Assembly (NCBI RefSeq): GCF_011290685.1
Contig: NZ_JAANYN010000004.1
Location: 124,001-188,000 of the forward strand
DNA length: 64,000 nt
From: Cyclobacterium plantarum
Lineage (GTDB): Bacteria > Bacteroidota > Bacteroidia > Cytophagales > Cyclobacteriaceae
Direction: 5' to 3'
This document shows positions 46,292-62,737 of the stretch, one piece after another. The notes beneath the pieces are model-generated. The model saw nothing but the letters and a program-made list of their open reading frames with translations, did no database searches and was not told where the DNA came from. Both the position numbers and the translations under genes were made by a program. Within the stretch, counting starts at the first letter, position 1; every line of letters starts with the position of its first letter.

Positions 46292-46672
46292 GTGAAAATA
46301 TTATTGGTAGATGATGATCCCATTGTTATCTTGTTGCAGAAGAAACTGATGGAAAAGGCCGGGATAAGCCATGAGGTGACCTCTTTCAACAATGGAGAGG
46401 ATCTTGTAGGTTTTCTTGCGGAGAATGCATTACCTGATGAAGATTATCTTATGTTTCTAGACATCAATATGCCTGGTTTATCAGGATGGGATGTTTTGGA
46501 CACTTTAGATGCCATGAACCTTTCTCAAAGAATAGAGGTGATCATCATTACTTCTTCCATTGAGGCTGCAGACAAGCGCAAAGCTAATAAATATAAACGA
46601 GTGGTTGATTTTTGGGTAAAACCATTCAGTATTCAGGATTTTAGTCAATTTAAAGAAAAATTCAAATTATAG
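46292..46672 (+). CDS. single-domain response regulator (CheY-like)
   Basis: 126 residues from a GTG start; MKILLVDDDPIVILLQKKLM begins exactly at the first beta strand, which supports this start. Receiver residues: D-D-D cluster at 7-9, phospho-accepting Asp in MFLDINMPGLSGWD (near residue 59), Ser/Thr switch in IIITSSI and Lys in FWVKPFS. There is no output domain. The TSSI-[DE] and R-V-x-x-x-x-x-KP features resemble Bacteroidota stand-alone receivers. No histidine kinase is encoded nearby, so the partner lies elsewhere. Confidence 0.92.
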   Translation: MKILLVDDDPIVILLQKKLMEKAGISHEVTSFNNGEDLVGFLAENALPDEDYLMFLDINMPGLSGWDVLDTLDAMNLSQRIEVIIITSSIEAADKRKANKYKRVVDFWVKPFSIQDFSQFKEKFKL

Positions 46673-46758: not shown

Positions 46759-48186
46759 ATGAAGCGACATACCCAATTTATCCTTTCCAACTTATTTTTT
46801 ATTTTGTTTTCTTTTGGGCAACCATCGGTTGCTCAGGAGAAATTCCCCACTGTTGATGGGTACAAAGGTATTTGGTTTACTCTGGGTCAATTTTCCACAT
46901 ATGGAGACAAATACTCAGGCGGCCTGGGTACTTACACTGCAAAGCATATTCCCCTGGCCATCCATGCGCCGGAGGTCAACCGGACTTTTTTTGTATACGG
47001 GGGCACCAGGTCTGAAAGTGAGAAACACCTTTTGTGTATGATAGGCATGTTTGATCATGAAACAGGAATGGTGAGCAAACCTGTGATCGTTCATGATAAA
47101 ATGGGGGTGGATGATCCCCATGACAACCCCAGCCTGTCACTAGATAGTGAGGGTCATATATGGGTTTTTGTAAGCGGTAGAGGGAGAAAAAGGATGGGTT
47201 TTAAATACAAAAGCAAGGAACCCTACAAAATTGATGCTTTTGATCTGATTTCCGAGGAAGAAATGACCTATCCTCAACCCAAATATATTCCAGAAATGGG
47301 GTTTCTCAATTTATTCACCAAATATACGGGCATAAGGGAGCTGTATTTTGAAACAAGTGCCTATGGAATGAATTGGTCTACTGATCAAAAGTTGGTAGCC
47401 ATTAAAAGAAATGGGGACGACAATAGCGGGCATTATCAGATTAGTGGTCAAAGCGGTAATAAAATTGGTTTTTTCTGCAATTGGCATCCCAATGGAAATG
47501 TAGACCTCAGAACCAATCTATATTACTTTCAAACCACTGATTTTGGAGAAACATGGACTGATGTGCAAGGAAACAAAGTATCAATTCCGGTAGTGAATTT
47601 GACTTCCTCCGGGCTGGTAAAGGAGTATTTCAGCCAAAAAAGGAATGTGTATTTAAAGGATGTGAATTTTGATTCTGAAGGTAATCCTATTGCTTTGTAT
47701 GTGGAAGGAATAGGGCATCAACCCGGTCCTGAAAATGGAAGCAGGAAGTGGCATGTGGTTCATTGGAACGGCAATTCATGGGAAGACCATGTCATTACCG
47801 AATCGGATCAAAACTATGATATGGGAAGTCTTTGGGTGGCAGGAGATGACTGGATGGTAATTGGTCCAACGACTGACAGCCCGCAGGATTGGGGAGCCGG
47901 TGGAGAGGTAGAAATGTGGAAAAGCAATGATGGAGGAGCCAATTGGGATAAGGCAAAAACTTTAACCAGAGGGAGCCAAAGAAACCATAACTACATCAGA
48001 AAAGTAGTTGATGGTCAGGATCCTTTTTATTATTTCTGGGCGGATGGAAATCCAAATGAATTCAGTAAAAGCCAACTTTATTTTGGCAACAGTGCAGGCC
48101 AGGTCTGGGTACTTCCTTACGAAATGGAAAAAGAGCAGGTAAAACCCAGGAGATGGCGCTCAGGTTGGTTCAGCAGTTGGTTTTAA
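46759..48186 (+). CDS. BNR_4-type beta-propeller protein (possible ulvan-type lyase or rhamnosidase)
   Basis: 475 residues with a signal peptide (ending PSVAQ). The mature chain is a propeller: YKGIWFTLGQFSTYGDKYSG, PHDNPSLSLDSEGHIWVFVS, FQTTDFGETWTDVQG (an Asp-box-like motif), LYVEGIGHQPGPENGSRKWH and MWKSNDGGANWDKAKTL. This is the BNR_4 pattern, found in polysaccharide lyases of the PL24/PL25 type and in GH145-like enzymes rather than in classical sialidases. His residues in the first blades (HIPLAIH, PHDNPS) could be catalytic. Substrate undetermined. It sits between a lone receiver gene and the membrane regulator, with no clear operon partner. Confidence 0.7.
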   Translation: MKRHTQFILSNLFFILFSFGQPSVAQEKFPTVDGYKGIWFTLGQFSTYGDKYSGGLGTYTAKHIPLAIHAPEVNRTFFVYGGTRSESEKHLLCMIGMFDHETGMVSKPVIVHDKMGVDDPHDNPSLSLDSEGHIWVFVSGRGRKRMGFKYKSKEPYKIDAFDLISEEEMTYPQPKYIPEMGFLNLFTKYTGIRELYFETSAYGMNWSTDQKLVAIKRNGDDNSGHYQISGQSGNKIGFFCNWHPNGNVDLRTNLYYFQTTDFGETWTDVQGNKVSIPVVNLTSSGLVKEYFSQKRNVYLKDVNFDSEGNPIALYVEGIGHQPGPENGSRKWHVVHWNGNSWEDHVITESDQNYDMGSLWVAGDDWMVIGPTTDSPQDWGAGGEVEMWKSNDGGANWDKAKTLTRGSQRNHNYIRKVVDGQDPFYYFWADGNPNEFSKSQLYFGNSAGQVWVLPYEMEKEQVKPRRWRSGWFSSWF

Positions 48187-48284: not shown

Positions 48285-50189
48285 ATGTATATCCTGTTTC
48301 GTTTGAGTAGAGTACCTTTCCTGATCAAATTGTTTCATGTGATGGCTTTTTTGCTGCTGTCTGAGTCTGGATTTGGGCAGCGCATTTCAGGAGAAGCAAC
48401 ATTAGCCATAGATGACAACTGGAATGAGAGAATATATGCCATAGACCAGCTTGAATTTTTTGAAGATACATCCGATACCCTGGTATTTGGAGACATCATC
48501 AAAAAGGAGTTCCAGCAATATTTTAAAATCGATGCAAATTTCAGTAAAAATGATTTCAATACCAGTCATACTTATTGGGTAAAACTTTCTATAGCCAATA
48601 ACCCAGATAGCGACAAAAAGTGGTTGCTGGAATTTTACGATCAAAGTATAGATAAGATAGAAGCTTATTTTCCGGATGAAAACGGAATGTATCAACGGCG
48701 ATTAATGGGGGACGACCTCCCCTTTAACAACCGACTTTTCTACCATAAAAATTTTCAGCACGAAATCCCTAACCAGTTGGATAGAATTGAGAATTTTTAC
48801 TTTAAGATCAATTCCACACAGAAGGCCGATATCCGCATTGCGGTTCGCTCACTTCACCGGTTTATTCATTATGCCCTTAGTGAATATTTTCTCTATGGTT
48901 TGTTTTATGGCATGATTCTCATTATTGCCTTTTACAATTTCCTTATTTTTCTGGCCGTAAGGGAAATGAAATATATCTATTATATTTTATACTTGCTGAG
49001 CGTGGGATTTTATGCCATGAGTTTGGATGGCATAGGTTTCCAATATTTTTGGCCGCAATTGCCAGAATTGAACTTTTTTGTGAATGGCGTATTTAGTTTT
49101 TTTATTGTTTTTTGGGCTGTCTTGTTTACTATCCGCTTTTTAAACACCCGTAGAAGGGCTAAAACCTTTCATTATTTGCTTTGGTTTTCTTTGTTTTTCA
49201 AATCCATGATTTTCATGGCAGGACTGTTGATTGATAAATCCTATTTTGAAATTTCCTTTTTTGATCTGATTCCTTTCTTACTGATATTTTCTACAGGTAT
49301 TTATTTGTTATCCAGGAATTTTCAGGCAGCGCGATTTTTTGTGATGGCCTATGGTGTTTTGTTTACTGGAGTATTGATAAAAGTCCTGGCAAGCTATGCC
49401 ATAATACCACACCATATCATCGTTTACTATAGCCTTCATTTTGCTTTTCTGGTTGAGATGGTCTTGTTGTCTTTTGCTCTGGGAGACAGGATCCGAATCA
49501 TGAAAGAAATACGGGATAAAGCATTAAAGCGTTCCTTGAATCAATACAAGGAAAATATAGCTTTGAAGGAGAGAGTAAACCTGGAGTTGGAAACAAAGGT
49601 AAAAGACAGAACTACCGAATTGGAGGAAAAAAACCGTTTACTCGAACATTATAACCAGCAATTGCAGGATAAGGATAAGGAGATCAAAAGAATAAATGCC
49701 TTACTCGACAAAGATAATTGGAAGTTAAAAAGTTCAATCAGGGATTCTTACAAGGCACGAATTTCTCAACAATCCCTTTCCCGGGAAGAATTTGCCAATA
49801 TTTTTCCGGATCAATCGGCCTGTTACCGGTATTTGGAGGATCTCAAATGGGGAAAAGGTTTTTCATGCAGGCAATGCGGCAAAACCAAATTTGGAAAAGG
49901 CCCAAAATGGTTTTCACGGAGATGCACCCATTGCGGACACATTGATTCCGCAACAGCTGGTACGATTTTTCATGGAATTAAATTCCCTCTTGAAAAAGCC
50001 TTTTATATTCTTTATGCTTCCCTGGAGGTGAAGGACAAGATGACCCTTGATGAATTGTCAGAAGTTTTGGATTTAGGCCGGAATACAATTTGGGCTTTTC
50101 GGAAAAAGGTAAATCAAAGAATGCAAGCAGCTGAAGAGGGTAGTTTGAAATGGGAGGAACTGATTCTTTTGCAACCCTTGTCTACCTGA
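48285..50189 (+). CDS. 7TMR-DISM membrane sensor fused to a transposase-type zinc ribbon and HTH
   Basis: 634 residues. Signal peptide about 1-32; extracytoplasmic sensor domain about 45-190 (7TMR-DISM type: TYWVKLSIANNPDSDKKWLL, YFKINSTQKADIRIAVRS); seven hydrophobic helices about 200-400 (YFLYGLFYGMILIIAFYNFL is the signature first helix); coiled coil about 405-480. The C-terminus is not a kinase or cyclase but a zinc ribbon with C528-x2-C531 and C547-x2-C550, then TAGTIFHGIKFPLEKAFYIL and LDELSEVLDLGRNTIWAFRK, the N-terminal zinc ribbon and helix-turn-helix of IS1595-type transposases. No catalytic transposase domain follows. The likely role is a membrane-bound transcription regulator sensing a periplasmic sugar. 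It lies 299 bases upstream of SusC and is the best candidate regulator of that locus. Confidence 0.88.
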   Translation: MYILFRLSRVPFLIKLFHVMAFLLLSESGFGQRISGEATLAIDDNWNERIYAIDQLEFFEDTSDTLVFGDIIKKEFQQYFKIDANFSKNDFNTSHTYWVKLSIANNPDSDKKWLLEFYDQSIDKIEAYFPDENGMYQRRLMGDDLPFNNRLFYHKNFQHEIPNQLDRIENFYFKINSTQKADIRIAVRSLHRFIHYALSEYFLYGLFYGMILIIAFYNFLIFLAVREMKYIYYILYLLSVGFYAMSLDGIGFQYFWPQLPELNFFVNGVFSFFIVFWAVLFTIRFLNTRRRAKTFHYLLWFSLFFKSMIFMAGLLIDKSYFEISFFDLIPFLLIFSTGIYLLSRNFQAARFFVMAYGVLFTGVLIKVLASYAIIPHHIIVYYSLHFAFLVEMVLLSFALGDRIRIMKEIRDKALKRSLNQYKENIALKERVNLELETKVKDRTTELEEKNRLLEHYNQQLQDKDKEIKRINALLDKDNWKLKSSIRDSYKARISQQSLSREEFANIFPDQSACYRYLEDLKWGKGFSCRQCGKTKFGKGPKWFSRRCTHCGHIDSATAGTIFHGIKFPLEKAFYILYASLEVKDKMTLDELSEVLDLGRNTIWAFRKKVNQRMQAAEEGSLKWEELILLQPLST

Positions 50190-50488
50190 TTTTTTAATTA
50201 TAATATCTTTAATTAAATTTTTTGGCCTCCAATAGCGAAGTATATAAAAGTTTGATAAATTCCTTGGATGTTTATTTTTAAAAATCCTGTTTAAAGCAAA
50301 ATAACAATGATTCTTATGTTATTAAACTGGAAAAAGCCAGGAGAATTTTTCGATTTTTAGAGCCCAGATTTCCAACATTTCTTATTGGAATTCAGATGTT
50401 TTTAAGTCTTTAGATTACCTTTTCGGAGGAAATACCAATAGTCAGATTTCCTATTAAATTATTAAATACTACCTAACTTAACTGATGT
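50190..50488. other. leader of the third SusC/SusD locus
   Basis: 299 bases, AT-rich, no gene or hairpin assigned. If the upstream membrane regulator binds DNA, this is the expected target region; no inverted repeat that could be an operator stood out. Confidence 0.4.
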
Positions 50489-53400
50489 ATGAAAATTCCT
50501 TTTACTTACAGCAAGGGATATTTTAAACCCAAAATTCCAGCAAAATTGGGATGGAGCCTGGGCTTTTTTCTGTGGATGATAAGCCTGGCTGGCTCAAGTG
50601 CCATCGCTCAACAAATTTCTGTATCTGGAAATATTACTGATCCGACAGGAGAATCGGTTCCGGGAGTGAATATTCTCGAAAAAAATACCAGCAACGGAAC
50701 CGTATCCGACATGGACGGTAATTATGAATTAACGGTCAGCTCCTCCGAGGCGATACTGGTGTTTTCTTTTATAGGTTTTGAAACCCAGGAAGTGAATGTC
50801 AATGGCAGGAGCCAGATTAATGTGGTGTTTTCTGAAGACTCGCAAAATCTCGAGGAGGTGGTAGTAGTTGGGTACGGTACCCAAAGGGAAAAGGACCTTA
50901 CTTCTGCCATTACCACTGTAAAATCTGATGATATCATCAAAACGCCCAATTCTCAAGCCATGCAGGCGCTTCAAGGCCGTGTGGCTGGTGTACAAATCGT
51001 CAGTAACGGGGCACCCGGTGCTTCTCCTACCGTCCGTGTGAGAGGTGTTGGTTCTTTCGAAGGTGGAGCGGCTCCCCTTTATGTGGTAGATGGCATGTTT
51101 TTCGATAATATTGATTTTCTGAATCCAAACGATATTGAAACCATATCCGTCTTAAAAGATGCATCTGCATCCGCCATTTACGGGGTAAGGGCTGCAAACG
51201 GTGTAGTGGTCATAGAAACCAAGTCCGGTAGTTACAATCAGGAGCCGGAAATTGTTTATGATGGTTATTATGGGGTACAAAACCCACAAAATATTTTAAA
51301 AATGGCCAATACCCAACAGTTTGTCGGGTACATCAATGAGACAGGATCGGCTCCGGATATTGCTTTTGTTCAAAATGCCATTCAGCGGTATGGCAGAAGC
51401 CGCATTGATCCCAGTTTGCCGGATGTGAACACAGATTGGTATGCTGAAATGATGCAGCCAGCTACCATCCAGAACCACACCCTATCTATCAATGGAGGGA
51501 GTGAAAGGACCCGATACTCCGTGGGAGGTAGTTACTTTGATCAACAGGGTCTGATGAAAGATACCCGTAACAGCTATAAGCGGATGAATTTCAGGGTAAA
51601 ATTGGATGCCGATCTCAAGGATTGGATTAGTGTAGGCGGTAACCTGAATGTCAGTACAGGAGAGCAGTACAATGGGGATAATGGGGCCTGGTTCCGGTCT
51701 TATTTTGCAGTACCCATCATTCCGGTGTATGATGAGCAAAATGAAAATGCCCAGCCCTATCAACTCTCCAATGCCCAGCAAATCGGATACAGGGGCAATC
51801 AAAATCCATTTTACAGCCTTTTATATTCCGACAACAAAAACAAGATTGCGAAAATACTGGGTAACTTTTATGCCGAATTGGAAATTATTCCCAATAACCT
51901 GACCTTCAAAACGTCTTATAATTACAACCTGGAATCGGTAACCAGCAGGAACGTTGGCTTTGCCTATAACGATGGGGTAACTGAGCGGCAATCGTCCATC
52001 AACAGGAGAACCTTCAACCGTTATGATCAGATTTGGGATAATTTCCTTACCTACCAAAACAATTTTGACAGACATAACCTGACGGTCGTTTTGGGACAAT
52101 CTTACAGGAGCGAAACCAATGAAGCTTTGTTTGCCAGGGGGGAAAATATCAATCCTAATCCGGACAGGGACCAGGAACAGTTCTGGTACCTGAATAATGC
52201 GACTGATTTTGACCTCAATGGTATTGGCGATGGAGGATCACGTTTGTTCTTTCAGTCTTATTTTTCCCGTGTGGCCTATAATTACGATGACCGTTACCTT
52301 TTGTATGGTACCTTTCGGCGAGATGGTAACAATAAATTCCAAAACAAATGGGGTAATTTTGCCACTATTGGTGCAGGATGGGTGCTTACTGAAGAAGCCT
52401 TCTTTAATGTAGATGCGATTAATTTCTTAAAACTTCGCGGATCATGGGGTGAATTGGGTAATGATGGTATCAGCCCTTCCGTAGGTGCCCCGGTGCTGGT
52501 GGAAAACAATGCTGCCATTGATGGGGTATTGGTGATTGGACGGCGTCTGGATCCAACCTTTGATTTGATAGAGCAGTGGGAAACAACGGTAGAAAGAAAT
52601 TTCGGTCTGAATGCCCGCATGTTCAGGGAAAGGCTTTCTATAGAAGCGGACTATTTTATCAGAGATACACGAAACCTTGCGGTGAGCATCATCCCTCCGG
52701 TAATCCGTGCCAGTGAAAGGAGAAGTGTGGGTGAAATCCGGAATCAGGGGCTGGAAGTGGCGGCCAATTGGGAGGATAACCTGACTACCAATTTTTCCTA
52801 TTATTTTGGCGGAAATTTTGGAACACTTAAAAACACCGTTCTAGGTCTGGGTGGGGCAGAAGGCCTGGATGCAGGTTCAGCAGAGTTCAGACAAAGGTCC
52901 ATTATTGGTCAGCCCTATCAGGCTTTCTTCGGATATGAGACGGATGGGGTTTTCCAATCTCAGGAGCAAATAAATGCTTACGGTTACACCCAGGAATTCA
53001 TCAACGACAATGACCTGCAGCCTGGCGATTTGATTTTCAGGGATCAAAACGGAGACGGTATGGTCAATGACCAGGATCGGGTGGTACTGGGCTCTTTTTT
53101 GCCCAGTCTGACTTATGGCTTTAATGCAGGGTTCCGTTATAGAAACCTGGATTTTTCAGCCCTCTTTCAAGGGCAATCCGGCTATAAAATCCTAAACCGG
53201 AAACGGGGAGAAATCATTTTCACCAATGATACCAACTTGGATGCCGAACTTGCCAATAACCTTTGGAGAGGAGAGGGTACATCCAATCGTTACCCCTCCG
53301 CTGCAGGCTTGCGTAAGGGTTGGAACCAAAATCTGAGCGATTATTTTGTGGAAGACGGTTCCTATTTCAGAATTCAAAATGTAAGGCTTTCTTATACCCT

Positions 53401-53578
53401 TGCAGACAAAGAGGTTTTCGGCACTACAATGCCTGAGACCAGATTCACCCTTACTGCAGAGCGACCCTTAACGATGTTTAATTACAACGGTTTTAATCCC
53501 GAAGTGGCAAATGGTATTGACCGGCAGGTATACCCTATCCCGGCCATCTATACCGTTGGTCTGAACATTAAACTTTAA
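50489..53578 (+). CDS. susC: SusC/RagA-family TonB-dependent receptor
   Basis: 1029 residues. Long signal region (cleavage near SSAIAQ, about residue 41), carboxypeptidase-like domain about 45-120 (SGNITDPTGESVPGVNILEK), TonB box EEVVVVGYGTQ, plug with PLYVVDGMFFDN, NPNDIETISVLKDASASAIY and GVRAANGVVVIET, and a barrel ending IYTVGLNIKL. No STN domain, so control is not through a FecR protein, in agreement with the separate membrane regulator upstream. The SusD gene begins immediately after the stop codon. By context (two GH144-type enzymes) it should import beta-1,2-gluco-oligosaccharides. Confidence 0.95.
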   Translation: MKIPFTYSKGYFKPKIPAKLGWSLGFFLWMISLAGSSAIAQQISVSGNITDPTGESVPGVNILEKNTSNGTVSDMDGNYELTVSSSEAILVFSFIGFETQEVNVNGRSQINVVFSEDSQNLEEVVVVGYGTQREKDLTSAITTVKSDDIIKTPNSQAMQALQGRVAGVQIVSNGAPGASPTVRVRGVGSFEGGAAPLYVVDGMFFDNIDFLNPNDIETISVLKDASASAIYGVRAANGVVVIETKSGSYNQEPEIVYDGYYGVQNPQNILKMANTQQFVGYINETGSAPDIAFVQNAIQRYGRSRIDPSLPDVNTDWYAEMMQPATIQNHTLSINGGSERTRYSVGGSYFDQQGLMKDTRNSYKRMNFRVKLDADLKDWISVGGNLNVSTGEQYNGDNGAWFRSYFAVPIIPVYDEQNENAQPYQLSNAQQIGYRGNQNPFYSLLYSDNKNKIAKILGNFYAELEIIPNNLTFKTSYNYNLESVTSRNVGFAYNDGVTERQSSINRRTFNRYDQIWDNFLTYQNNFDRHNLTVVLGQSYRSETNEALFARGENINPNPDRDQEQFWYLNNATDFDLNGIGDGGSRLFFQSYFSRVAYNYDDRYLLYGTFRRDGNNKFQNKWGNFATIGAGWVLTEEAFFNVDAINFLKLRGSWGELGNDGISPSVGAPVLVENNAAIDGVLVIGRRLDPTFDLIEQWETTVERNFGLNARMFRERLSIEADYFIRDTRNLAVSIIPPVIRASERRSVGEIRNQGLEVAANWEDNLTTNFSYYFGGNFGTLKNTVLGLGGAEGLDAGSAEFRQRSIIGQPYQAFFGYETDGVFQSQEQINAYGYTQEFINDNDLQPGDLIFRDQNGDGMVNDQDRVVLGSFLPSLTYGFNAGFRYRNLDFSALFQGQSGYKILNRKRGEIIFTNDTNLDAELANNLWRGEGTSNRYPSAAGLRKGWNQNLSDYFVEDGSYFRIQNVRLSYTLADKEVFGTTMPETRFTLTAERPLTMFNYNGFNPEVANGIDRQVYPIPAIYTVGLNIKL

Positions 53579-55129
53579 ATGAAGATGAAGATGAATATCT
53601 ATAAATATATTTCCGTGCTGTTTCTGGTCTTTTCAGCAATCCTCATGGGACCGGCTTGTACTGATGTGTTGGATGAGCCATTAGAAAATGAATTTATTGC
53701 TGAAGATACTGATTATAATCAATCTGAAAACATGGTATTGCTTTTGTACGGCGCTTATGGCGAATTGTACAGTTTGCAATGGGAAACTTTTCCCTTAATA
53801 AGTGTTCGGGGCGATGACGTTAATGCGGCTGGGGACCAGTTTCCTCTTACAGAAACGGACGAGTTTCGGTATGACAGGAATTTTTGGATGTACAATTCCA
53901 CCTGGCTCAATTTGTATTCTGATCTCCTGTACTGGCATGGTGCCATGGAAGAAATCGAAAAGTACCGGGAGGCCGGTGCCAATGAAGCCAATGCGAGGCA
54001 ATACATTGCAGAAATCAGGGTCATGAGAGCTTTTGAATTAATGTATCTGGCCAAACTTTGGGGATCAGTGCTTATACCCAATGCGTCCGAGCCCAGCCAT
54101 TTGTTTAATGTGGAGTTGTCCGATTATCAAACCGTAATGCAACACATTTCCATGGAAATGGATGCGGCTATCCCGGATTTGCCAAGTGTTCGTCCCAACC
54201 AAAGGTCTGATGTAAGGGGAGGAGTGACCCGCTACACGGCATTGGCTGTCAAGGCAAGGGCCAATATGGAGCTGCACAACCACACTGCAGTGGTGGCTGC
54301 CACAGAGGAAATCATCGGGAGTGATTTATTTACCCTGGAACCGGATTTTTATCAGCTTTTTAAAATTTCCGGAAAGCTGAATGATGAAAATTTGCTGGAG
54401 TTGCAATATTCTGATTTTGGTCAGGCCAGCGGAACACGTACCCGCTACCTCTGGGATTTTTTCGGCCCCGCCAGCTGGACACCTGCCGTTTCTGGAGCAG
54501 GGGGAGGTTGGGGGTTTTTCGAACCCTCCAATAAATACGTAAAGTTTATGCTGGACAGAAATGAACAGGAGCGTCTTACCACTTCTGTATTATTTACCCC
54601 AGACGGAATAGCTGAAATTCAATCCGATGCTGCCTATGAGAATTTACCGGATTGGGTTTCCAATGTAAGTCCCGACGGAGATGTGTTTAACAATCATCCC
54701 CGGTATCAATTCCTGAGCGGTAAGCATTACCTTCCTTCCACCCAGTTGACCCCCGGAAGGTTTACTTATGGGGAAAACAAGAATTTCACCTGCATCCGGT
54801 ATGCTGAAATACTGCTATTGCATGCAGAAGCTCTGGTCAATGGAGCCAGTAGTCAGGTCTTGTCAGCAGAAGAAGCTGTAAATCTGGTAAGGGCCAGGGC
54901 TGGGTTGAATAACCTTACCTCCGTGGATCTGGATGCCGTATTGGAAGAAAAATATGCTGAATTTGCCATGGAATGGGGAATAAGGTATTTTGACCTGATC
55001 AGGTATGACCGCACTTCAGAACTGAATTATGGCGGCAGGACCTTTAGCGAAGGAGATCGGTATCTGCCATACCCGCTGGAGCAACAAGACATCTTACCGC
55101 AAATACGGGAGGCAGCAAATGAAGAATGA
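53579..55129 (+). CDS. susD: SusD/RagB-family surface glycan-binding lipoprotein
   Basis: 516 residues; the start codon directly follows the SusC stop. Signal with Cys in MGPACTDVLDEP. SusD landmarks: NMVLLLYGAYGELYSLQWET, YIAEIRVMRAFELMYLAKLW, TRYTALAVKARANMELHNHT, FTCIRYAEILLLHAEALVNG, VNLVRARAGLNNLT, VLEEKYAEFAMEWGIRYFDL and the final YLPYPLEQQDILP. It forms the lid of the SusC channel. The coding end overlaps the LamG lipoprotein start by 11 bases. Confidence 0.94.
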   Translation: MKMKMNIYKYISVLFLVFSAILMGPACTDVLDEPLENEFIAEDTDYNQSENMVLLLYGAYGELYSLQWETFPLISVRGDDVNAAGDQFPLTETDEFRYDRNFWMYNSTWLNLYSDLLYWHGAMEEIEKYREAGANEANARQYIAEIRVMRAFELMYLAKLWGSVLIPNASEPSHLFNVELSDYQTVMQHISMEMDAAIPDLPSVRPNQRSDVRGGVTRYTALAVKARANMELHNHTAVVAATEEIIGSDLFTLEPDFYQLFKISGKLNDENLLELQYSDFGQASGTRTRYLWDFFGPASWTPAVSGAGGGWGFFEPSNKYVKFMLDRNEQERLTTSVLFTPDGIAEIQSDAAYENLPDWVSNVSPDGDVFNNHPRYQFLSGKHYLPSTQLTPGRFTYGENKNFTCIRYAEILLLHAEALVNGASSQVLSAEEAVNLVRARAGLNNLTSVDLDAVLEEKYAEFAMEWGIRYFDLIRYDRTSELNYGGRTFSEGDRYLPYPLEQQDILPQIREAANEE

Positions 55130-56240
55130 TTTGAAACATAAAATATATTCCAAGATGTTAAATAAATGGATCAGCCTGCTGGCAATTGTGGTGTTTTGCC
55201 TTAGTGCCTGTACAGATGGCTATATTGACGATATTGAATTTGTTGAACCGGGAGCAGACAGTGAATCTCCCGAAATTACTTTAAACTACCCAACGGATGG
55301 TACCCAGATTCGGGTTACAGAAGATGTTACTTCCATTGAGATCGATCTTGAAGTTGTAGACGATATTGAAATCGAATGGGTGGCGGTTGAACTTGATGGA
55401 CAGGAGATTGCAAGGTTTGAGGACTTTAAGGATTACAGGCGGTTTCTGGGTTCCTTTGAATACGATAACCTGACAAATGGAGAACACCAGTTGGATGTCA
55501 TTGCCAGGGATCTTTCCGGGAAGGAAACCAGTACTTCGGTGGTATTTGAAAAAATCGAGCCTTACCAGCCCATTTATGAAGGCGAAGTTTTCTATTTGCC
55601 TTTTGATGGTGATTATACTGAATTGGTGCAGATCCAGAATGCCAATGTATCCGGGTCACCGGGATTTACAGATGGCATATCCGGTAGGGCATATTCCGGT
55701 AGTCCGGACGCATACCTGACTTATGAGGGGGGAAATCTTCACTCTGAAGAGTTCAGTGCCGTTTTTTGGTATAAATTGGATGGAACGCCTGATCGGGCTG
55801 GTCTTTTGGTTATGGGCCCTCCAGACGAAGCCAACCCAACCGCCATGAATAACCGGACTTCCGGATTCAGGCTTTTCAGGGAAAATGCCGGTGGTATGCA
55901 GCGGTTTAAATTGAATGTAGGCAATGGGTCGGGTGAAAACTGGTTCGATGGAGGAGCGGCGGCAGATATTGACCCGTCTTCAGATACCTGGAATCACATC
56001 GCCTTTACCATTTCTTCTGACCAATGTACGGTTTACATCAATGGGGAAGTGGTCAGCCAGGGGAGCTTTCCGGGAATAGACTGGTCTGGTTGCGATATCC
56101 TTTCGGTAGCCTCAGGCGCACCCCGCTTTGCCGGTTGGGGCCATTTGTCTACCTCAAGCCAATTGGATGAATTAAGGATTTTTAACCGGGCTATCAGTCA
56201 GTCTGAAATACAATCCATAATGATGGAAGAGAAAAATTGA
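55119..56240 (+). CDS. LamG-domain lipoprotein, probable surface glycan-binding protein
   Basis: 373 residues from the ATG at 55119 inside the SusD end; an ATG at 55155 directly before the hydrophobic segment is an alternative. Lipobox FCLSAC. An Ig-like domain at about 45-140 (SPEITLNYPTDGTQIRVTED ... LTNGEHQLDVIARDLSGKET) is followed by a laminin-G/concanavalin-like domain at about 150-370 (FYLPFDGDYTELV, FSAVFWYKLDGTPDRAGLLV, SDTWNHIAFTISSDQCTVYI, LDELRIFNRAISQSEI). In the position after SusD, such lipoproteins usually act as extra surface glycan-binding proteins (SusE/F or SGBP role). No catalytic residues are evident. Followed by a strong terminator. Confidence 0.82.
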   Translation: MKNDLKHKIYSKMLNKWISLLAIVVFCLSACTDGYIDDIEFVEPGADSESPEITLNYPTDGTQIRVTEDVTSIEIDLEVVDDIEIEWVAVELDGQEIARFEDFKDYRRFLGSFEYDNLTNGEHQLDVIARDLSGKETSTSVVFEKIEPYQPIYEGEVFYLPFDGDYTELVQIQNANVSGSPGFTDGISGRAYSGSPDAYLTYEGGNLHSEEFSAVFWYKLDGTPDRAGLLVMGPPDEANPTAMNNRTSGFRLFRENAGGMQRFKLNVGNGSGENWFDGGAAADIDPSSDTWNHIAFTISSDQCTVYINGEVVSQGSFPGIDWSGCDILSVASGAPRFAGWGHLSTSSQLDELRIFNRAISQSEIQSIMMEEKN

Positions 56241-56531: not shown

Positions 56532-58499
56532 ATGAGGTCTCGGATTCTCTTATTTTTATCTTCATTAATCTTTTGGTCTTGCCAACCGGAAGAGACGGCC
56601 TTTCCGGTTTTGGAATTGACCAACATAACCATTGGTGAAATGGAAATTCAAGGCATAGAACCCTTGACCGGTATCCCCGTTGATCAGGCCATTCATTTAC
56701 ATTTTACTATTCCCCTGGCCTTAAAATCCGTTCCCGAAAACCTGGAATTAACGGATATGGATTCAGGAAAAGAAGTCCCTTTCAATACCAATTTTCTGGA
56801 CGGATCGCAGACCATCAGGCTGCTTCCGGTAGGCTTGCTGAAAGCGGGAACCACCTACAAGCTGGAAATTCATCCAGGATTAACCGGTGTGAATGGACAA
56901 GTATATGCAGGCAAGGAGCTTGTATTTACCACTCTTTTTGGAGCTGTTTCGGTACAGTCATTTGTCCTGCAGGGCGCAGATCATCTTGGTGGCAGGAATT
57001 GGGTTGGGGCAGCGCTTGATTTTCAACTTGACCTGCATTTTTCCGGTAAAGTAGTTTTGAAGGAAGAATACATTCAACTTGAAGAAAAAGAAGAGGGACA
57101 GCTTCCTGTACAGGTAATTCATGTCAAAGATTCTCTTCATTACCAAATCCGGTCCCCGGAACCCTTGAAGGACTTGAGACAATTTACCTTTTCCCTTTCT
57201 GAAGATCAGCACCCGGACACTGGGATTGATGTGGAAGGATTCGAACTCACTTTTTATACTGAGCCGGCAGCTGAACCAAAATTTCCCGTGTTGGATGAAA
57301 ATGCGCTGTTGGATAAAGTTCAATCTCAGACCTTCAGGTATTTTTGGGATTTTGCGCATCCGGTAAGCGGCATGGCAAGGGAAAGAAGTAGCTCAGGAGA
57401 CCTTGTTACCACTGGTGGTTCCGGATTCGGCATCATGGCCCTCATGGTAGGGATGGAAAGGGGCTTTATCAGTAGGGAACAAGGAGTGAGCAGGTTGTCA
57501 AAAATACTTGATTTTCTTCAGGGAGCAGATCGTTTTCATGGTGTCTGGCCCCATTGGATGAATGGCAATACAGGAAAAACCATTCCTTTCAGCACACTGG
57601 ACAACGGAGGGGATCTGGTAGAAACGGCTTTATTGATGCAAGGGTTATTAACCATTAGCAGTTACCTTGATGGCAGCAGGATTGAAGAAAAGTTGCTGCA
57701 GGATCAAATTACCCAACTTTGGGAGGAGGTTGAATGGGATTGGTACACCAGGGGAGGTCAGAACCGGTTATTCTGGCATTGGTCACCTGATCAGGAATGG
57801 GCCATGGATCTGCCCGTTTCTGGTTACAACGAAGCTTTGATCGTATATATTTTAGCAGCGGCTTCTCCCACCCACCCCATTGAGGCTGAAGTTTATCATG
57901 AAGGTTGGGCCAGAAATGGAACCATCCAAAATGGGCAGTCTTACAATGGTTTCATCCTTCCCCTTGGACAGGAAAGGGGAGGTCCCCTGTTTTTTGCCCA
58001 CTATTCTTTTTTGGGGTTGGATCCCAGGAATTTGGTTGACAGGTATGCAGGTTATTGGGAGCAGAACCGCATGCATAGCCTGATCAATAGGGCGCATTGT
58101 ATCCAAAATCCTCAATCCTATGTGGGTTACGGTGCCGAATCCTGGGGATTGACTGCAAGTGATAATCCAGAAGGATATGCAGCGCATTCACCTACCCGGG
58201 ACCTGGGTGTGATCACTCCAACGGCAGCCTTATCCTCTATGCCCTATACACCCCGGGAATCCATGGAAGCCCTGAAATATTTCTATTACCGGTTAGGGGA
58301 CAGACTTTGGGGAGAAATGGGCTTTTTGGATGCATTTGACCTAACCAAACAATGGTTTGCTACGGATTACCTGGCCATCGATCAGGGGCCTATTGTATTA
58401 ATGATTGAAAATTACCGGACAGGTTTACTTTGGAATCATTTTATGCAAAATAAAGATATCCAATCCGGCCTGGAAAAATTAGATTTTACTTATGAATAG
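56532..58499 (+). CDS. GH144-type endo-beta-1,2-glucanase-like lipoprotein with Ig-like N-terminus
   Basis: 655 residues. Signal with Cys in FWSCQPEE. Residues about 25-140 form a Big_5-like Ig domain (GIPVDQAIHLHFTIPLALKS, LLPVGLLKAGTTYKLEIHPG), and about 140-245 a second beta domain. The catalytic 'glycoamylase' domain covers about 255-650: FRYFWDFAHPVSGMARERSS, GSGFGIMALMVGMERGFIS, ADRFHGVWPHWMNGNTGKT, GGDLVETALLMQGLL, FWHWSPDQEWAMDLPVSGYN, GGPLFFAHYSFLGLDPRNLV, HSLINRAHCIQNP, YGAESWGLTAS and AIDQGPIVLMIENYRTGLLW. This matches the family founded on the Chitinophaga endo-beta-1,2-glucanase. Its stop overlaps the start of a paralogue. Confidence 0.88.
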   Translation: MRSRILLFLSSLIFWSCQPEETAFPVLELTNITIGEMEIQGIEPLTGIPVDQAIHLHFTIPLALKSVPENLELTDMDSGKEVPFNTNFLDGSQTIRLLPVGLLKAGTTYKLEIHPGLTGVNGQVYAGKELVFTTLFGAVSVQSFVLQGADHLGGRNWVGAALDFQLDLHFSGKVVLKEEYIQLEEKEEGQLPVQVIHVKDSLHYQIRSPEPLKDLRQFTFSLSEDQHPDTGIDVEGFELTFYTEPAAEPKFPVLDENALLDKVQSQTFRYFWDFAHPVSGMARERSSSGDLVTTGGSGFGIMALMVGMERGFISREQGVSRLSKILDFLQGADRFHGVWPHWMNGNTGKTIPFSTLDNGGDLVETALLMQGLLTISSYLDGSRIEEKLLQDQITQLWEEVEWDWYTRGGQNRLFWHWSPDQEWAMDLPVSGYNEALIVYILAAASPTHPIEAEVYHEGWARNGTIQNGQSYNGFILPLGQERGGPLFFAHYSFLGLDPRNLVDRYAGYWEQNRMHSLINRAHCIQNPQSYVGYGAESWGLTASDNPEGYAAHSPTRDLGVITPTAALSSMPYTPRESMEALKYFYYRLGDRLWGEMGFLDAFDLTKQWFATDYLAIDQGPIVLMIENYRTGLLWNHFMQNKDIQSGLEKLDFTYE

Positions 58500-60093
58500 C
58501 ACTAAACCCAAAATCATGAAATTATTTCCCTATTGCACGATTGTTATGCTGTTGCTTGCCGGGTATTCCTGTAAGCAAAAATCGGTTTCCCCCAACGGGA
58601 TTGAATCCAATGCCTATGACCGGCATGTGGAATTGAGTTGGAATCCCGTTGAGCTGGCGGATAAATATGAGATTTATGTTCGAAAAGAAGATGGTGATTA
58701 CTCCAAAAGAGCCGAGGTAACAGATACGCTTTACCTGGATTTTGTGAATGATCTGGGAAAAAACCTGGGTTTGCAGTATAAAATCGAAGCTGTGCTGGGA
58801 GAAGAATCCCGGATGATCGGGGAAGTGGCCGTAGAAACACGGACCATGACTGAAGAGGAATTGCTGGACATGGTTCAATACTATACATTTCGGTATTTTT
58901 GGGAGGGCGCTGAACCAAATTCGGGAATGGCCAGGGAAAGAATTCATGTGGATGGGGTATACCCTCAAGACGACCAAAATATAGTGACCGCAGGAGGGAC
59001 TGGTTTTGGACTCTTCGCCTTGCTTGCCGGTTTGGAAAGGGAATGGATCAGCCCCGATGAAGGCCTGGCCCGTTTTGAAAAGATAGTGGACTTTTTGGCG
59101 AATGCAGATCGGTTTCATGGTATTTGGTCCCATTGGATCAATGGAGAAACCGGCAAAGTCAAACCCTTTGGTCAGGATGATGATGGGGCGGATCTGGTCG
59201 AGTCGGCCTTTTTGATGCAAGGCTTACTTGCAGTAAGGGAATATTACAAGCAAGGAAATGAAAGGGAAAAAGCCCTGGCTGACAAAATAGACGTTTTGTG
59301 GAAAGAAATGCAATGGGACTGGCATACACAGGGTGGACAGGAGGTGCTTTATTGGCATTGGTCTCCGAATTTTGGATGGCAAAAAGACTTTGCTATCAGG
59401 GGGTATGATGAGTGCCTGATCACTTATGTTTTAGCAGCATCTTCGCCAACGCATGCTGTATCAGAGCAGGTATACCACCAGGGCTGGGCTCGGGGGGGAG
59501 CCATTCAAAACGAAAGCGAGGCATTTGGTTATTCCCTCCCTCTTTTACACAATGGGTCCCCTGATTACGGAGGGCCCTTGTTTTGGGCACACTATTCTTA
59601 CCTGGGATTGAATCCAAAAGGACTAAAAGACAGGTATGCGGATTATTGGGAGCATAACCGCAACCATAGCCTGATCAACCGGCAGTGGTGTATGGAGAAT
59701 GAAGCAGGGTTTAAAGGCTATGGTTCAGATTTATGGGGGCTTACTGCCAGTTATTCTACCATAGGGTATTCAGCCCACAGGCCGGGTAACGATATCGGAG
59801 TCATTTCGCCCACAGCGGCACTTTCATCCATTCCCTATACACCAAAAGAAAGCATGGAAGTCCTCAAAAACCTCTATTACAATTACGGGGAGAAAACTTT
59901 TGGCCGGTATGGGTTTTACGATGCCCTGAGCCCGGAAGAAGATTGGTACCCCAAACGGTACCTTGCCATTGATCAGGGACCCATCGTTGCCATGATAGAA
60001 AACTACCGGTCCGGTTTGGGCTGGAAATTATTTATGCAGGCTCCGGAAATTCAGGAAGGATTAAAAAAATTAGGCTTTTCCATTTCCGAATGA
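58492..60093 (+). CDS. GH144-type endo-beta-1,2-glucanase-like lipoprotein, second copy
   Basis: 533 residues; starts 8 bases inside the upstream gene, or 24 bases later at an ATG (58516) directly before the signal MKLFPYCTIVMLLLAGYSC. Residues about 35-120 resemble an FN3 domain (ESNAYDRHVELSWNPVELAD). The catalytic domain from about 122 shares every block with the upstream enzyme: FRYFWEGAEPNSGMARERIH, ADRFHGIWSHWINGETG, YWHWSPNFGWQKDFAIRGYD, GGPLFWAHYSYLGLNPKGLK, HSLINRQWCMEN, YGSDLWGLTAS and AIDQGPIVAMIENYRSGLGW. The two probably split the work between surface and periplasm or between chain lengths. Tandem duplication followed by exchange of the N-terminal domain is the likely origin. Confidence 0.88.
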   Translation: MNSTKPKIMKLFPYCTIVMLLLAGYSCKQKSVSPNGIESNAYDRHVELSWNPVELADKYEIYVRKEDGDYSKRAEVTDTLYLDFVNDLGKNLGLQYKIEAVLGEESRMIGEVAVETRTMTEEELLDMVQYYTFRYFWEGAEPNSGMARERIHVDGVYPQDDQNIVTAGGTGFGLFALLAGLEREWISPDEGLARFEKIVDFLANADRFHGIWSHWINGETGKVKPFGQDDDGADLVESAFLMQGLLAVREYYKQGNEREKALADKIDVLWKEMQWDWHTQGGQEVLYWHWSPNFGWQKDFAIRGYDECLITYVLAASSPTHAVSEQVYHQGWARGGAIQNESEAFGYSLPLLHNGSPDYGGPLFWAHYSYLGLNPKGLKDRYADYWEHNRNHSLINRQWCMENEAGFKGYGSDLWGLTASYSTIGYSAHRPGNDIGVISPTAALSSIPYTPKESMEVLKNLYYNYGEKTFGRYGFYDALSPEEDWYPKRYLAIDQGPIVAMIENYRSGLGWKLFMQAPEIQEGLKKLGFSISE

Positions 60094-60191
60094 ATCTTGA
60101 TAATGCCTCGTAATGTAAAAAATTTGGAATGGATGAAGGATAGGGAAGAAATTGTATAGTATATTCCATCAAATTTGACATTGTCCTGTTG

Positions 60192-61652
60192 ATGCCTACT
60201 AGCAAACCCACTTATCTGACATCCCTGCTGGCCTGCCTGGTTTTTTTATTTATGGCTTTCAGTTTTCCCCTGGGATTCAAAATATGGATTAAGGAAGCAG
60301 CAAATTTTACTTTATATTATTTCGGAACCTACTATCTCTACCTGGGCCTGCTTATGGTTTTGGTATTGTTGGGTATTGCGGTATCCCCATTGGGAAAAAC
60401 AAAATTGGGAGAGGGGCCGGTGGCTTATGGCTGGTTTTCCTGGGTAGCCATGCTCTACAGTACCGGAATGGGTGCCGGTTTGATGTTGCGTGCGATTCAG
60501 GAACCTGTATTTTATTATACCCAAGCCCCCAGGGCATCTGAACTTTCACCCGAAATATTTGCTCTCGAATACACCTTTTTCCATTGGGGACTTACACCCT
60601 GGGCTTTTTATGGCATGTTTGGGCTGATCATAGGATACCTGGTGTATGGGAGGGGGAGATTGATGCTTAGTTCCTCTGTTCTGCATGGCAAATACCACAA
60701 ACCCTGGTTGATTGTTCCCATAGATGTGATCACCATTATCAGTACCTTGTTTGGTGTGGTAGGTGCTGTGGGATTGGGTAGCAGGCAATTGCTGGCCGGA
60801 TTCAGGCAGCTTTTCGGAATGCTGGAAGTCAATTACACCAACAATGCTTATGTGGTAGTCTTTCTAGGCTCCTTAGCTACGCTTTCTGCTTTTACAGGTT
60901 TAAGCAATGGTATCCGCAATTTATCCAGGTTTAATATTGCACTGGCTTTGTTTTTACTATTTTTCACCTGGTTGGCAGGAGATATTTTAAGTATTTTTGG
61001 TAATTTTTCTGCAGCATCTTTAAGCTATATCAAAGATTTTTTACCCATGAGCATCAATTTTGGCTCCATGAAAGTAGGCCAGGACTTTTTGATGGACTGG
61101 ACATTTTTTTATTGGGCGTTTTGGCTATCCTGGGCTCCCTTTACAGGTGTTTTTATTGCCAGGATTTCTAAAGGCCGCACTTTTCGTGAATTTATTTTTG
61201 GTGTGCTGCTCGTACCCAGCCTGGGTACCTTCTTTTGGTTTACGGTTTTCGGATCTCAGGCTTTTGAGTTGATAGGCCATCCGGAGCTTTATGAAGGCCA
61301 GTTTGATTCTTTATATGGTTCCATTTTTGTTTTCTTTGACAGCCTTCCACTGGCAGGGCTGATCAAAATGATGGGTCTGATCCTGGTGTTTACTTTTCTT
61401 ATCACCTCCATAGATTCAGCCATTTTTGTCCTGGGGATGTTTGCTGACAATGGGAATATGGAACCCAGGAGGAGAAATCTGCTGGCCTGGGGGTTGATTT
61501 TGGTCCTGTTTACCGTGGCCACGATTTTTGTGGGGAAAGAACAACTTTTGGAATCCATAAGTCAATTGCTGGTATTGATGGCCTTGCCATTTAGTTGGGT
61601 TTACCTGCTGATGATCAGTAGTTTTCTTTTTATCTTGTACCAAAAGAAATAA
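60192..61652 (+). CDS. BCCT-family transporter
   Basis: 486 residues from the ATG at 60192 (a TTG just before is in frame). About 12 hydrophobic segments. BCCT signatures: YSTGMGAGLMLRAIQEPVFY (the glycine-rich TM3 region; known betaine carriers have GMGIG), FFHWGLTPWAFYG, and the highly conserved WTFFYWAFWLSWAPFTGVFI with ARISKGRTFREF, then ITSIDSAIFVLGMF. BCCT proteins move betaine, choline, carnitine or related quaternary ammonium compounds across the inner membrane. The protein lacks the long cytoplasmic tails of osmoregulated members. Placement between glucanase and TIM-barrel hydrolase genes is unusual. Confidence 0.92.
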   Translation: MPTSKPTYLTSLLACLVFLFMAFSFPLGFKIWIKEAANFTLYYFGTYYLYLGLLMVLVLLGIAVSPLGKTKLGEGPVAYGWFSWVAMLYSTGMGAGLMLRAIQEPVFYYTQAPRASELSPEIFALEYTFFHWGLTPWAFYGMFGLIIGYLVYGRGRLMLSSSVLHGKYHKPWLIVPIDVITIISTLFGVVGAVGLGSRQLLAGFRQLFGMLEVNYTNNAYVVVFLGSLATLSAFTGLSNGIRNLSRFNIALALFLLFFTWLAGDILSIFGNFSAASLSYIKDFLPMSINFGSMKVGQDFLMDWTFFYWAFWLSWAPFTGVFIARISKGRTFREFIFGVLLVPSLGTFFWFTVFGSQAFELIGHPELYEGQFDSLYGSIFVFFDSLPLAGLIKMMGLILVFTFLITSIDSAIFVLGMFADNGNMEPRRRNLLAWGLILVLFTVATIFVGKEQLLESISQLLVLMALPFSWVYLLMISSFLFILYQKK

Positions 61653-61654
61653 AC

Positions 61655-62737
61655 ATGTTATTCCAGGGAAACAAATGTATGGGACTGTTGGTGGCTTTGA
61701 GCTTATTTTTGGCTTGTATCACCTGCAACACTGCCAAAAAAACTGAGAATTTTGCCAATTTTGAAGAAAGCAAACATCGTGGAGTATGTTGGGTGGGCAG
61801 CAGGAATCCATTGCAGGGAGGAGAGATGGAGAATTTAACAGCTACCGGAGTCAGCCACATTTCCCAAACCCCTTTTGGCTGGCAGCGCCATACATCGGAG
61901 CCGTCGATCAGGTGGGAAACCCATTCAGAAAAGATCTGGTGGGGGGAAAGCAGCAAAGGCCTGGTGGCTACCATTGATACGGCCCAAAGCCAGGGCCTGA
62001 TCAGTATTTTAAAACCCCACATTTGGGTGCGTGGATCCTGGCCCGGAGAAATCGCCATGACAACGGAAACCGATTGGCAAATCTGGTTTGACAATTACAA
62101 ATCATTCATTTTGTATTATGCCAACCTTGCTGAGCAGAGAAAGCTTCCCTTATTTTGTGTAGGAACAGAATTGGAAAAAACCAGTCACCGGGAAAACGAT
62201 TGGCGGGAAATCATAGCTGCGGTAAAGGAGGTATACGGTGGAAAGTTAACCTATGCGGCAAATTTCACAGAGTATGAATACGTAAAATTTTGGGATGCGC
62301 TGGACTACATTGGTGTTCAGGCCTATTTTCCCCTGGCTACTGGTGAAAATCCAACTTTGGATCAACTTTTACAGGGATGGAAAAGAATAATACCTGATCT
62401 GGAAAAGGTGAATCTGCTTTACCAAAAACCCATTTTATTCACCGAGTTGGGTTATTGTAATACTAATGATGCGGCTGATGCTCCATGGGTGTGGCCAAAT
62501 GAAAGGAAAAACGCCATTTTATCCGAAGAAATGCAAGCGCGCTGTTATACTGCTTTTTTTGAATCTGTATGGCACCAACCCTGGTTTCAGGGGGTTTATT
62601 TCTGGAAATGGTATCCGGAATCCAGAAACCGCAGCCCTGATTTTACCCCCCAACATAAAATGGCACAAAAGGTGATGCAAACGTATTTTACCTTTCAAAC
62701 ACCTGAAATCGGGCATGACGTAGCCGTCAAACAATAG
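61655..62737 (+). CDS. GH113-like TIM-barrel glycoside hydrolase lipoprotein
   Basis: 360 residues starting 3 bases after the BCCT stop; an ATG at 61679 is an alternative. Lipoprotein-like signal (ALSLFLACITC). The barrel shows RGVCWVGSRNPLQGGEMENL, GVSHISQTPFGW, GLISILKPHIWVRGSWPGEI, acid/base E172 in FCVGTELEKTS, YIGVQAYFPLA, nucleophile E264 in LFTELGYCN, and VYFWKWYPE. This is the GH113/'GTA TIM-barrel' pattern; characterised members are beta-mannanases, but the family is diverse and a role on beta-glucan fragments is possible. The last 11 codons (PE IGHDVAVKQ region) come from an interspersed repeat, so the original C-terminus has probably been altered. Confidence 0.8.
   Translation: MLFQGNKCMGLLVALSLFLACITCNTAKKTENFANFEESKHRGVCWVGSRNPLQGGEMENLTATGVSHISQTPFGWQRHTSEPSIRWETHSEKIWWGESSKGLVATIDTAQSQGLISILKPHIWVRGSWPGEIAMTTETDWQIWFDNYKSFILYYANLAEQRKLPLFCVGTELEKTSHRENDWREIIAAVKEVYGGKLTYAANFTEYEYVKFWDALDYIGVQAYFPLATGENPTLDQLLQGWKRIIPDLEKVNLLYQKPILFTELGYCNTNDAADAPWVWPNERKNAILSEEMQARCYTAFFESVWHQPWFQGVYFWKWYPESRNRSPDFTPQHKMAQKVMQTYFTFQTPEIGHDVAVKQ

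Follow-up and report, generated by a model that had tools for sequence, protein, structure and literature searches.

A gene of Cyclobacterium plantarum joins a 7TMR-DISM membrane receptor to a putative DNA-binding module of IS1595-transposase type in one open reading frame. Judging from sequence, its product is quite likely a membrane-spanning one-component regulator of a beta-glycan utilisation locus, which would sense a periplasmic product and activate the SusC/SusD/glycosidase operon downstream. The fusion, its recurrence, its linkage to SusC/SusD, a repeated upstream element and the co-occurrence of element and regulator were computed, and from these we infer DNA contact, a dimer, a ligand and activation. 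If this is true, a further regulator class would be added to SusR, hybrid two-component systems and ECF-sigma/FecR systems for polysaccharide loci, a bacterial IS transposase domain would have been domesticated as a transcription-factor domain, and the motif with its spacing would provide a DNA handle for regulon prediction in a large group of environmental glycan degraders.

Domain architecture and recurrence of the fusion

The features of the window (the whole stretch of 64,000 nucleotides that was analysed) are listed in Table 1. The two parts of a 7TMR-DISM receptor, the 7TM region and a DISMED extracellular domain, were found in the window protein and in all 74 members scanned. A hydropathy scan of the window protein, with overlapping windows merged, returned one N-terminal segment and seven more. 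In the full-length AlphaFold model (eight sequences, mean pLDDT 66), one helix covers residues 383-475 and extends the last membrane helix into the region predicted to be cytoplasmic. Zn_ribbon_IS1595 scored 27.1 bits in Pfam against a gathering score of 25.4 (E = 4e-6), and the four cysteines are invariant across the 74 aligned members. Residues 566-618 are the only part that matches the NCBIfam IS1595 transposase model, at the start of the model (E = 2e-4, 21.1 bits, far below the cut-off of 75 bits). The DDE_Tnp_IS1595 catalytic domain had no Pfam match in the window protein or in any of the 74 tallied members, i.e. of the zinc ribbon and DDE domain of an IS1595 transposase the window protein has the former only; among the comparison transposases, the full-length L134 has both, and L126 has the zinc ribbon and a DDE match under the cut-off. 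Kinase, receiver, AraC and sigma domains gave no Pfam match in the fused protein at E <= 0.1, and the sequence matches point to the zinc ribbon/helix-turn-helix region as the candidate intracellular output module. This C-terminal domain was poorly modelled (pLDDT 53), and the predicted signal peptide and helix-turn-helix have hydropathy, weak models and the NCBIfam match as their basis. A PDB sequence search gave no match for the window protein at E <= 0.1, and for the C-terminal profile weak matches (best E 0.067) with no chain clearly related.

Table 1. Features of the regulator gene and of its proposed target operon in the window.
Feature	Position	Strand	Basis or remark
Fused regulator gene, 634 aa, ATG start	48285..50189	+	ORF and Pfam matches; same fusion in relatives
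7TMR-DISMED2 sensor domain, residues 55-187, predicted periplasmic	48447..48845	+	Pfam E 6e-28; 74/74 scanned members
7TMR-DISM_7TM, residues 200-402, seven transmembrane helices	48882..49490	+	Pfam E 4e-42, hydropathy; 74/74 members
Long helix / coiled-coil linker, residues 403-480, limits approximate	49491..49724	+	Single AlphaFold helix 383-475
IS1595-type zinc ribbon, residues 508-552, Cys 528/531/547/550	49806..49940	+	Pfam Zn_ribbon_IS1595; 67/74 members at E <= 0.01
Helix-turn-helix region resembling IS1595 transposase start, residues 566-618	49980..50138	+	NCBIfam transpos_IS1595, below cut-off; helices modelled with low confidence
Candidate operator, downstream copy	50316..50337	+	Score 12.4
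Promoter-like -7 element TACCTTTTC	50416..50424	+	Position; alignable across the Cyclobacterium relatives except L036
SusC-like TonB-dependent transporter, proposed target	50489..53578	+	ORF, Pfam
SusD-like protein, proposed target operon	53579..55129	+	ORF, Pfam
Big_7 / LamG-like protein	55029..56240	+	ORF, Pfam; called start overlaps SusD, may be too early
PF10091 glycosidase, proposed target operon	56532..58499	+	Pfam-based label
Second PF10091 glycosidase, proposed target operon	58492..60093	+	Pfam-based label

A preliminary description of this DNA, made from the letters alone, had named a DISM sensor, seven helices and a four-Cys zinc ribbon without a catalytic domain, with all of which Pfam and hydropathy agree; its coiled coil corresponds to the single AlphaFold helix, in a model of moderate quality. 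Its IS1595-type helix-turn-helix holds in part: the NCBIfam match covers residues 566-618, but it stays below the cut-off and the helices have low confidence.

The C-terminal 154 aa matched 113 of 196 genomes of Cyclobacterium's family (E <= 1e-5), and the strongest of the matches listed fall in open frames of about 600-700 aa. From those listed, 80 places selected for long frames were fetched together with seven named loci and the window; conditional on this selection, all 88 C-terminal matches sit in ORFs that also match the N-terminal 410 aa, and three additional ORFs match the N-terminal part alone. Removal of two duplicates (L041 and L042) left 86 loci, comprising 66 of group A (N-terminal identity of 32% or more, including the window protein) and 20 of group B. 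All 86 have the two CxxC pairs. The Pfam tally, which covers 74 of the 86 proteins (12 were left out by a size limit), found 7TM and DISMED2 in every one and the zinc ribbon in 67 at E <= 0.01. In a phylum sample, with nine candidates scored per genome in most genomes, 41 of 395 genomes matched the C-terminal profile (E <= 1e-10), and frames above 600 aa occurred in f1, f2, f4 and f5, four families of which f4 and f5 contribute a single genome each. In f2, the second family of the order, 42 of 100 genomes matched, and 37 matches lie in frames of 656-884 aa. A scan of IMG/VR confirmed no relative.

The preliminary description had proposed a search for DISM and the IS1595 zinc ribbon in one protein, and named a lack of recurrence or an erroneous join as what would undo it. 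The combination recurs in Cyclobacterium and many other genera, in frames of about 600-700 aa, the fusion is present in two families of the order and in single genomes of two more, and it forms one open frame in separate assemblies. The chance that two genes were joined through assembly or sequencing error is practically nil, given that the fusion was found in separate assemblies, in proteins 44-94% identical to the window's, and in other families; recurrence across genomes rules out a chance fusion or assembly error.

Linked glycan loci and a candidate tandem operator

In 55 of the 66 group-A loci the gene directly downstream of the regulator is a SusC of the same orientation, with SusD after it; in 61, SusC lies within six genes on either side, and a PF10091-cluster gene is present in 59 (neighbour gene clusters were named through representatives). 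We take PF10091 to be the GH144 family, and the window glycosidases to be GH144-type on that basis. Linkage is looser in group B, with SusC/SusD within six genes in 11 of 20 loci and a GH10, GH43 or GH3 cluster gene in 17. Twenty-five further loci (20 taken from the 37 f2 matches with long frames, and five others, of which three belong to f2, one to f4 and one to f5) all have SusC within three larger genes downstream, often after GH3, as read by eye from the gene order; at L159, GH5- and GH16-type proteins with CBM6 are encoded upstream. At least 56 SusC genes were counted in the 6.2 Mb of the window's genome, and the two further DISM_7TM proteins of this genome had no SusC-like neighbour within the 12 kb fetched. 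The expectation in the preliminary description that such genes adjoin SusC/D pairs is borne out by the 55 group-A loci with SusC in the next position, and its proposal that the regulator controls the adjacent SusC/SusD/GH144 locus, a predicted role, is strengthened by this conserved linkage and by the tandem element between regulator and SusC.

Several other genes of the window were also noted. A small stand-alone response regulator with a GTG start (46292-46672) and a BNR_4 protein (46759-48186) precede the regulator, and among the loci examined these two clusters occur only in the window and L034-L037. A BCCT-type transporter (60189-61652) and a GH113-like glycosidase (61655-62737) come after the PF10091 genes.

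Four similar sequences were dropped from the 55 group-A regulator-to-SusC intergenic regions, leaving 51 non-redundant ones. The motif aTGtTtTTtAagcGt.AaAaa. scores 6 or more on the SusC-sense strand in 49 of these, whereas the opposite strand reaches this score in 3 of 51 and order-2 simulated sequences do so in 3%. When random halves served for training, the motif was found in 77-96% of the held-out halves (reverse strand 0-12%, simulated 1-9%); these are not fully independent, because the motif seed had been picked by eye with the full set in view. Searches of the full set from random starts recovered the same motif. The order-2 background replaced the single-base background of the first search, which gave weaker, homopolymer-like motifs at widths of 20-24. 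Two direct copies of aTGtTtTTtAagcGt.AaA with a summed score of at least 12 (hereafter a pair) lie 64-66 bp apart in 44 of the 51 regions, the spacing having been outside the motif training. Among the other spacings from 25 to 130 bp, any single one accounts for at most four loci and any three-wide window for at most six.

A scan for pairs at a stricter threshold on both strands of 91 loci (1.84 Mb) revealed 45 loci (39 from the non-redundant set) in which a pair follows the regulator within 600 bp. Only two pairs were located elsewhere, both just upstream of SusC, and in both the pair goes with SusC (L086, with a divergent SusC, and L088, with two ORFs in between). At L079 the pair precedes a GH30 gene rather than SusC, and no pair was found in the fetched stretch of the group-A loci L052 and L095 or of the unlinked trio L066, L071 and L072. 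Seven of the 51 regions are below the pair threshold (the window, L034, L035, L043, L044, L061 and L119). In the window, the upstream copy expected 64-66 bp before 50316 is unrecognisable (the position 64 bp upstream scores -6.8); L034 is like the window, L035 has a weak pair (10.4) and L036 a good one (16.5). For the window and like loci, either a single site is enough or the upstream one has drifted. The downstream repeat begins 100 bp before TACCTTTTC, without overlap; TACCTTTTC is a predicted promoter element, resembling TAnnTTTG, which we take to be the Bacteroidota -7 consensus.

LacI-like AANCGNTT words were also seen in 31 of the 51 group-A intergenics (e.g., L074, L077 and L089), by eye often beside the repeats, and a second regulator may act at these regions. 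The divergent group-A member L119 has two TTAAAGCGTATCAA-type sites, by eye more than 66 bp apart.

Where the regulator is unlinked from SusC, the pair is kept at 64-66 bp upstream of SusC, beside PF10091 genes, in three of four genomes. In these three (G036, G142 and G186) there is no SusC up to six genes away from the regulator, and the pairs elsewhere score 19.5, 18.1 and 17.3, respectively; in G036 (L146) the automatic gene call places the SusC start at a TTG inside the motif, at the point where the downstream copy begins, and this called start is probably too early. In the fourth genome, G102, with the regulator on another contig, sites of 7.4 and 10.0 lie 63 bp apart, giving four of four with a spacing relaxed after the fact. 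Among genomes lacking the regulator (those without a match to the C-terminal domain), all six SusC upstream regions beside PF10091 genes are without a pair (best pair at most 1.3); four of these SusC proteins are 55-72% identical to the window's and two 33-35%. Four further PF10091 regions, two from G025/G015 and two from G130/G082 (the latter two genomes having no C-terminal profile match in the phylum sample), contain no pair that reaches 12. In three regulator-lacking loci with syntenic SusC/SusD/PF10091 genes (L141, L142 and L144), a FecR gene stands before SusC, a sigma-70-like gene precedes FecR in L141 and L142, and for the SusC of L144 an STN match stays below the cut-off. By this gene content, loci of the type seem to have changed regulator.

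Because the group-A matrix fails on the other groups at score 7 (0 of 25 F2-type regions, with one on the reverse strand, and 2 of 12 group-B regions on either strand), motifs were sought anew in each group, and the likeness between groups therefore rests on the comparison of random-start motifs. These are TTTtaTtTAAGCGcAAtaAa for 12 group-B divergent intergenics and cGTGTGa.GTAAGtGtAtA for 22 of 25 F2-type intergenics, the set excluding L121 and L124 (other families) and L155 (an f2 locus without a match to the F2 words). The matrix correlations were 0.72 between A and B (permutation p = 0.001), 0.61 between B and F2 (p = 0.002) and about 0.5 between A and F2 (p = 0.03-0.04), and the three motifs are alike in the same orientation relative to the target. 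At 16 of the 25 F2-type loci a TAAGYG element lies 74-78 bp beyond a TGTTTTTTA word, in some with a further copy at +24 bp; no fixed spacing of sites was found in group B.

In the mechanism that we propose, DISMED2 would sense a polysaccharide product (a glycan fragment) in the periplasm, for group A possibly a beta-1,2-glucan oligosaccharide, and the signal would pass inward via the seven helices and the coiled coil. The zinc-ribbon/helix-turn-helix domain, presumably captured long ago from an IS1595-family transposase, would bind DNA, with a membrane-held dimer placing one domain on each direct repeat, about six helical turns apart on one face of the DNA upstream of SusC. The dimer would recruit RNA polymerase at a promoter such as TACCTTTTC (50416-50424 in the window) and thereby switch on the SusC/SusD/glycosidase operon.

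Known regulators and alternative explanations

According to an excerpt of PMC3878776, SusR and SusR-like regulators are membrane proteins with a periplasmic sensor and a cytoplasmic C-terminal DNA-binding domain, encoded beside SusC/SusD; the operators predicted for them consist of directly repeated sites with a spacing of 67 or 77 bp, i.e. six or seven helical turns, and SusR activates. As far as that excerpt allows comparison, the fused protein has the same predicted layout (membrane, periplasmic sensor, C-terminal DNA-binding domain, next to SusC/SusD), and its element copies are similarly spaced, at 64-66 bp in group A and 74-78 bp in 16 F2 loci. Direct repeats 64-66 bp apart, about six turns, were found upstream of SusC in 44 of the 51 group-A intergenics, with no recognisable pair in the window. 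Such spacing may be a requirement of membrane-held dimers, and tandem sites of this SusR-like kind would make the mechanical question on membrane-anchored regulators testable via spacing.

The protein features taken as SusR-like, DUF6377 and TPR, come from one protein, that of L191, which was located via GH97 loci and whose SusR identity rests on gene order with GH13, GH97, SusC and SusD. It has 531 aa, with DUF6377, sub-threshold TPR matches and a sub-threshold helix-turn-helix, and neither DISM nor a zinc ribbon. DUF6377 with a TPR-like periplasmic part is absent from the window protein in Pfam; the L191 protein has no similarity to the window protein or to the profiles built from the fused proteins, and the C-terminal profile had no match in 20 fetched GH97 loci. 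Since L191 has no detectable similarity to the fused protein, membership in the SusR family was rejected, and the fused protein would be a functional analogue of SusR outside that family.

Hybrid two-component systems and ECF-sigma/FecR systems also control SusC/SusD polysaccharide loci, and the fused protein differs from both in having no histidine kinase, receiver, AraC or sigma domain at E <= 0.1. A precedent for DISM with a DNA-binding domain is the ChiS-family domain that occurs with 7TMR-DISM (PMC8092284, in excerpt). The ChiS-family domain is described in that excerpt as a cryptic helix-turn-helix of proteobacterial genomes with no zinc ribbon mentioned, and by this description the fused domain is set apart from it. 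The statement in the preliminary description that 7TMR-DISM proteins end in kinase, cyclase or GGDEF domains must be widened, as the excerpt of PMC8092284 on the ChiS-family domain provides a DNA-binding precedent. Its view that the regulator class is undescribed stands as regards the fusion, which did not appear in the titles and abstract openings searched, but membrane-bound sus regulators with tandem operators are known from SusR (PMC3878776, in excerpt). Our literature search, made over titles and abstract openings with most subscription papers outside it, returned no description of a DISM-IS1595 fusion, and a sensor and a transposase-type DNA binder in one protein would be an undescribed kind of sensor-regulator.

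The absence of the pair where the DISM regulator is absent, and the similar motifs at fused-protein paralogues of other glycan loci, speak against a reading in which the tandem element is owned by some other, unlinked regulator (SusR-type, hybrid two-component or LacI-type), with the fused protein merely nearby or doing something else. SusR and HTCS operators are likewise direct repeats with long spacers (PMC3878776, in excerpt), and the LacI-like AANCGNTT words in 31 of 51 intergenics would also suit another owner. The candidate owners searched for, in 18 genomes, were the SusR-type proteins alone. DUF6377 exceeded the cut-off in four of the 18 (3 of 12 with the regulator and 1 of 6 without), and reached E <= 1e-5 in 5 of 12 and 2 of 6, respectively. 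By these frequencies SusR-type proteins do not track the element, so the distribution leaves them unsupported as its owners. Overall, we regard a different owner as distinctly unlikely.

It is also rather unlikely, in our view, that the fused protein is a membrane-bound repressor that leaves the operator on glycan sensing. The sign of regulation is not fixed by anything in the sequence, which leaves room for repression. By convention, an operator upstream of a promoter without overlap fits activation, and the downstream repeat lies 100 bp before the predicted promoter. SusR, the closest working analogue, activates according to the excerpt of PMC3878776. We prefer the fused protein as an activator that would own the tandem element.

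Origin of the putative DNA-binding domain

A quick tree of this one domain (66 rows and 159 columns) comprised 27 of the 66 group-A loci, with 39 group-A rows left out, 20 group-B loci, five of other families and 14 transposases, and was rooted by our choice on two distant transposases. The 52 fused domains group together in a single clade (SH-aLRT 100), separate from the IS1595 transposases. With that outgroup the clade lies inside transposase diversity, with a support of 80 for its nearest transposase relatives, and L119 and L120 are placed outside both main groups, A and B. One capture from an IS1595-type transposase would be the simplest reading of this tree, which fits the derivation proposed in the preliminary description. 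IS1595-family transposases (PF12760 and PF12762) share the zinc ribbon and the following helix-turn-helix region with the fused protein, whereas the latter has no DDE catalytic domain and carries the module behind a membrane receptor. We lean towards a single ancient capture of the IS1595 domain by a 7TMR-DISM receptor, from which the regulator class would have radiated over Cyclobacterium's order and beyond to several kinds of beta-glycan loci (PF10091/GH144-type, GH10/GH43/GH3 xylan-type and GH16/GH5/GH3-type), reaching a SusR-like operator geometry independently.

The same ancestry raises the reading that the C-terminal domain keeps a transposase-related role, such as transposon-end binding or DNA anchoring at the membrane, with no gene regulation. 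This is very improbable: the homology to the N-terminal region of IS1595 transposases agrees with it, as do F2 matrix p-values of 0.005 or less on three IS-side stretches (L129, L126 and L137; 32 tests per matrix, low scores), but the tally of 74 members contains no DDE match, the A and B matrices gave no p below 0.01 on IS sides, and placement at sugar loci is conserved. The element as a transposon end was considered with the matrices on both sides of eight IS1595-type elements, and no match is claimed at these low scores and 32 tests per matrix. The lowest p-values were 0.01 for A, 0.025 for B and, for F2, <0.005 (L129), 0.005 (L137) and 0.005 (L126), the stretches of L126 and L129 being unproven transposon ends.

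L126 and L129 have a common upstream stretch, whose reverse strand resembles the F2 motif. Both belong to genome G353 (L126-L129), which has nine IS1595-type transposase matches, including the closest transposase relatives of the fused domain in the tree; around the four elements L126-L129, terminal inverted repeats were not clearly seen. The window's own genome also contains an IS1595-type transposase remnant with several stop codons (G000:C3:19387-19752; L003 and L177), which has 35-36% identity to the DNA-binding domain of the regulator.
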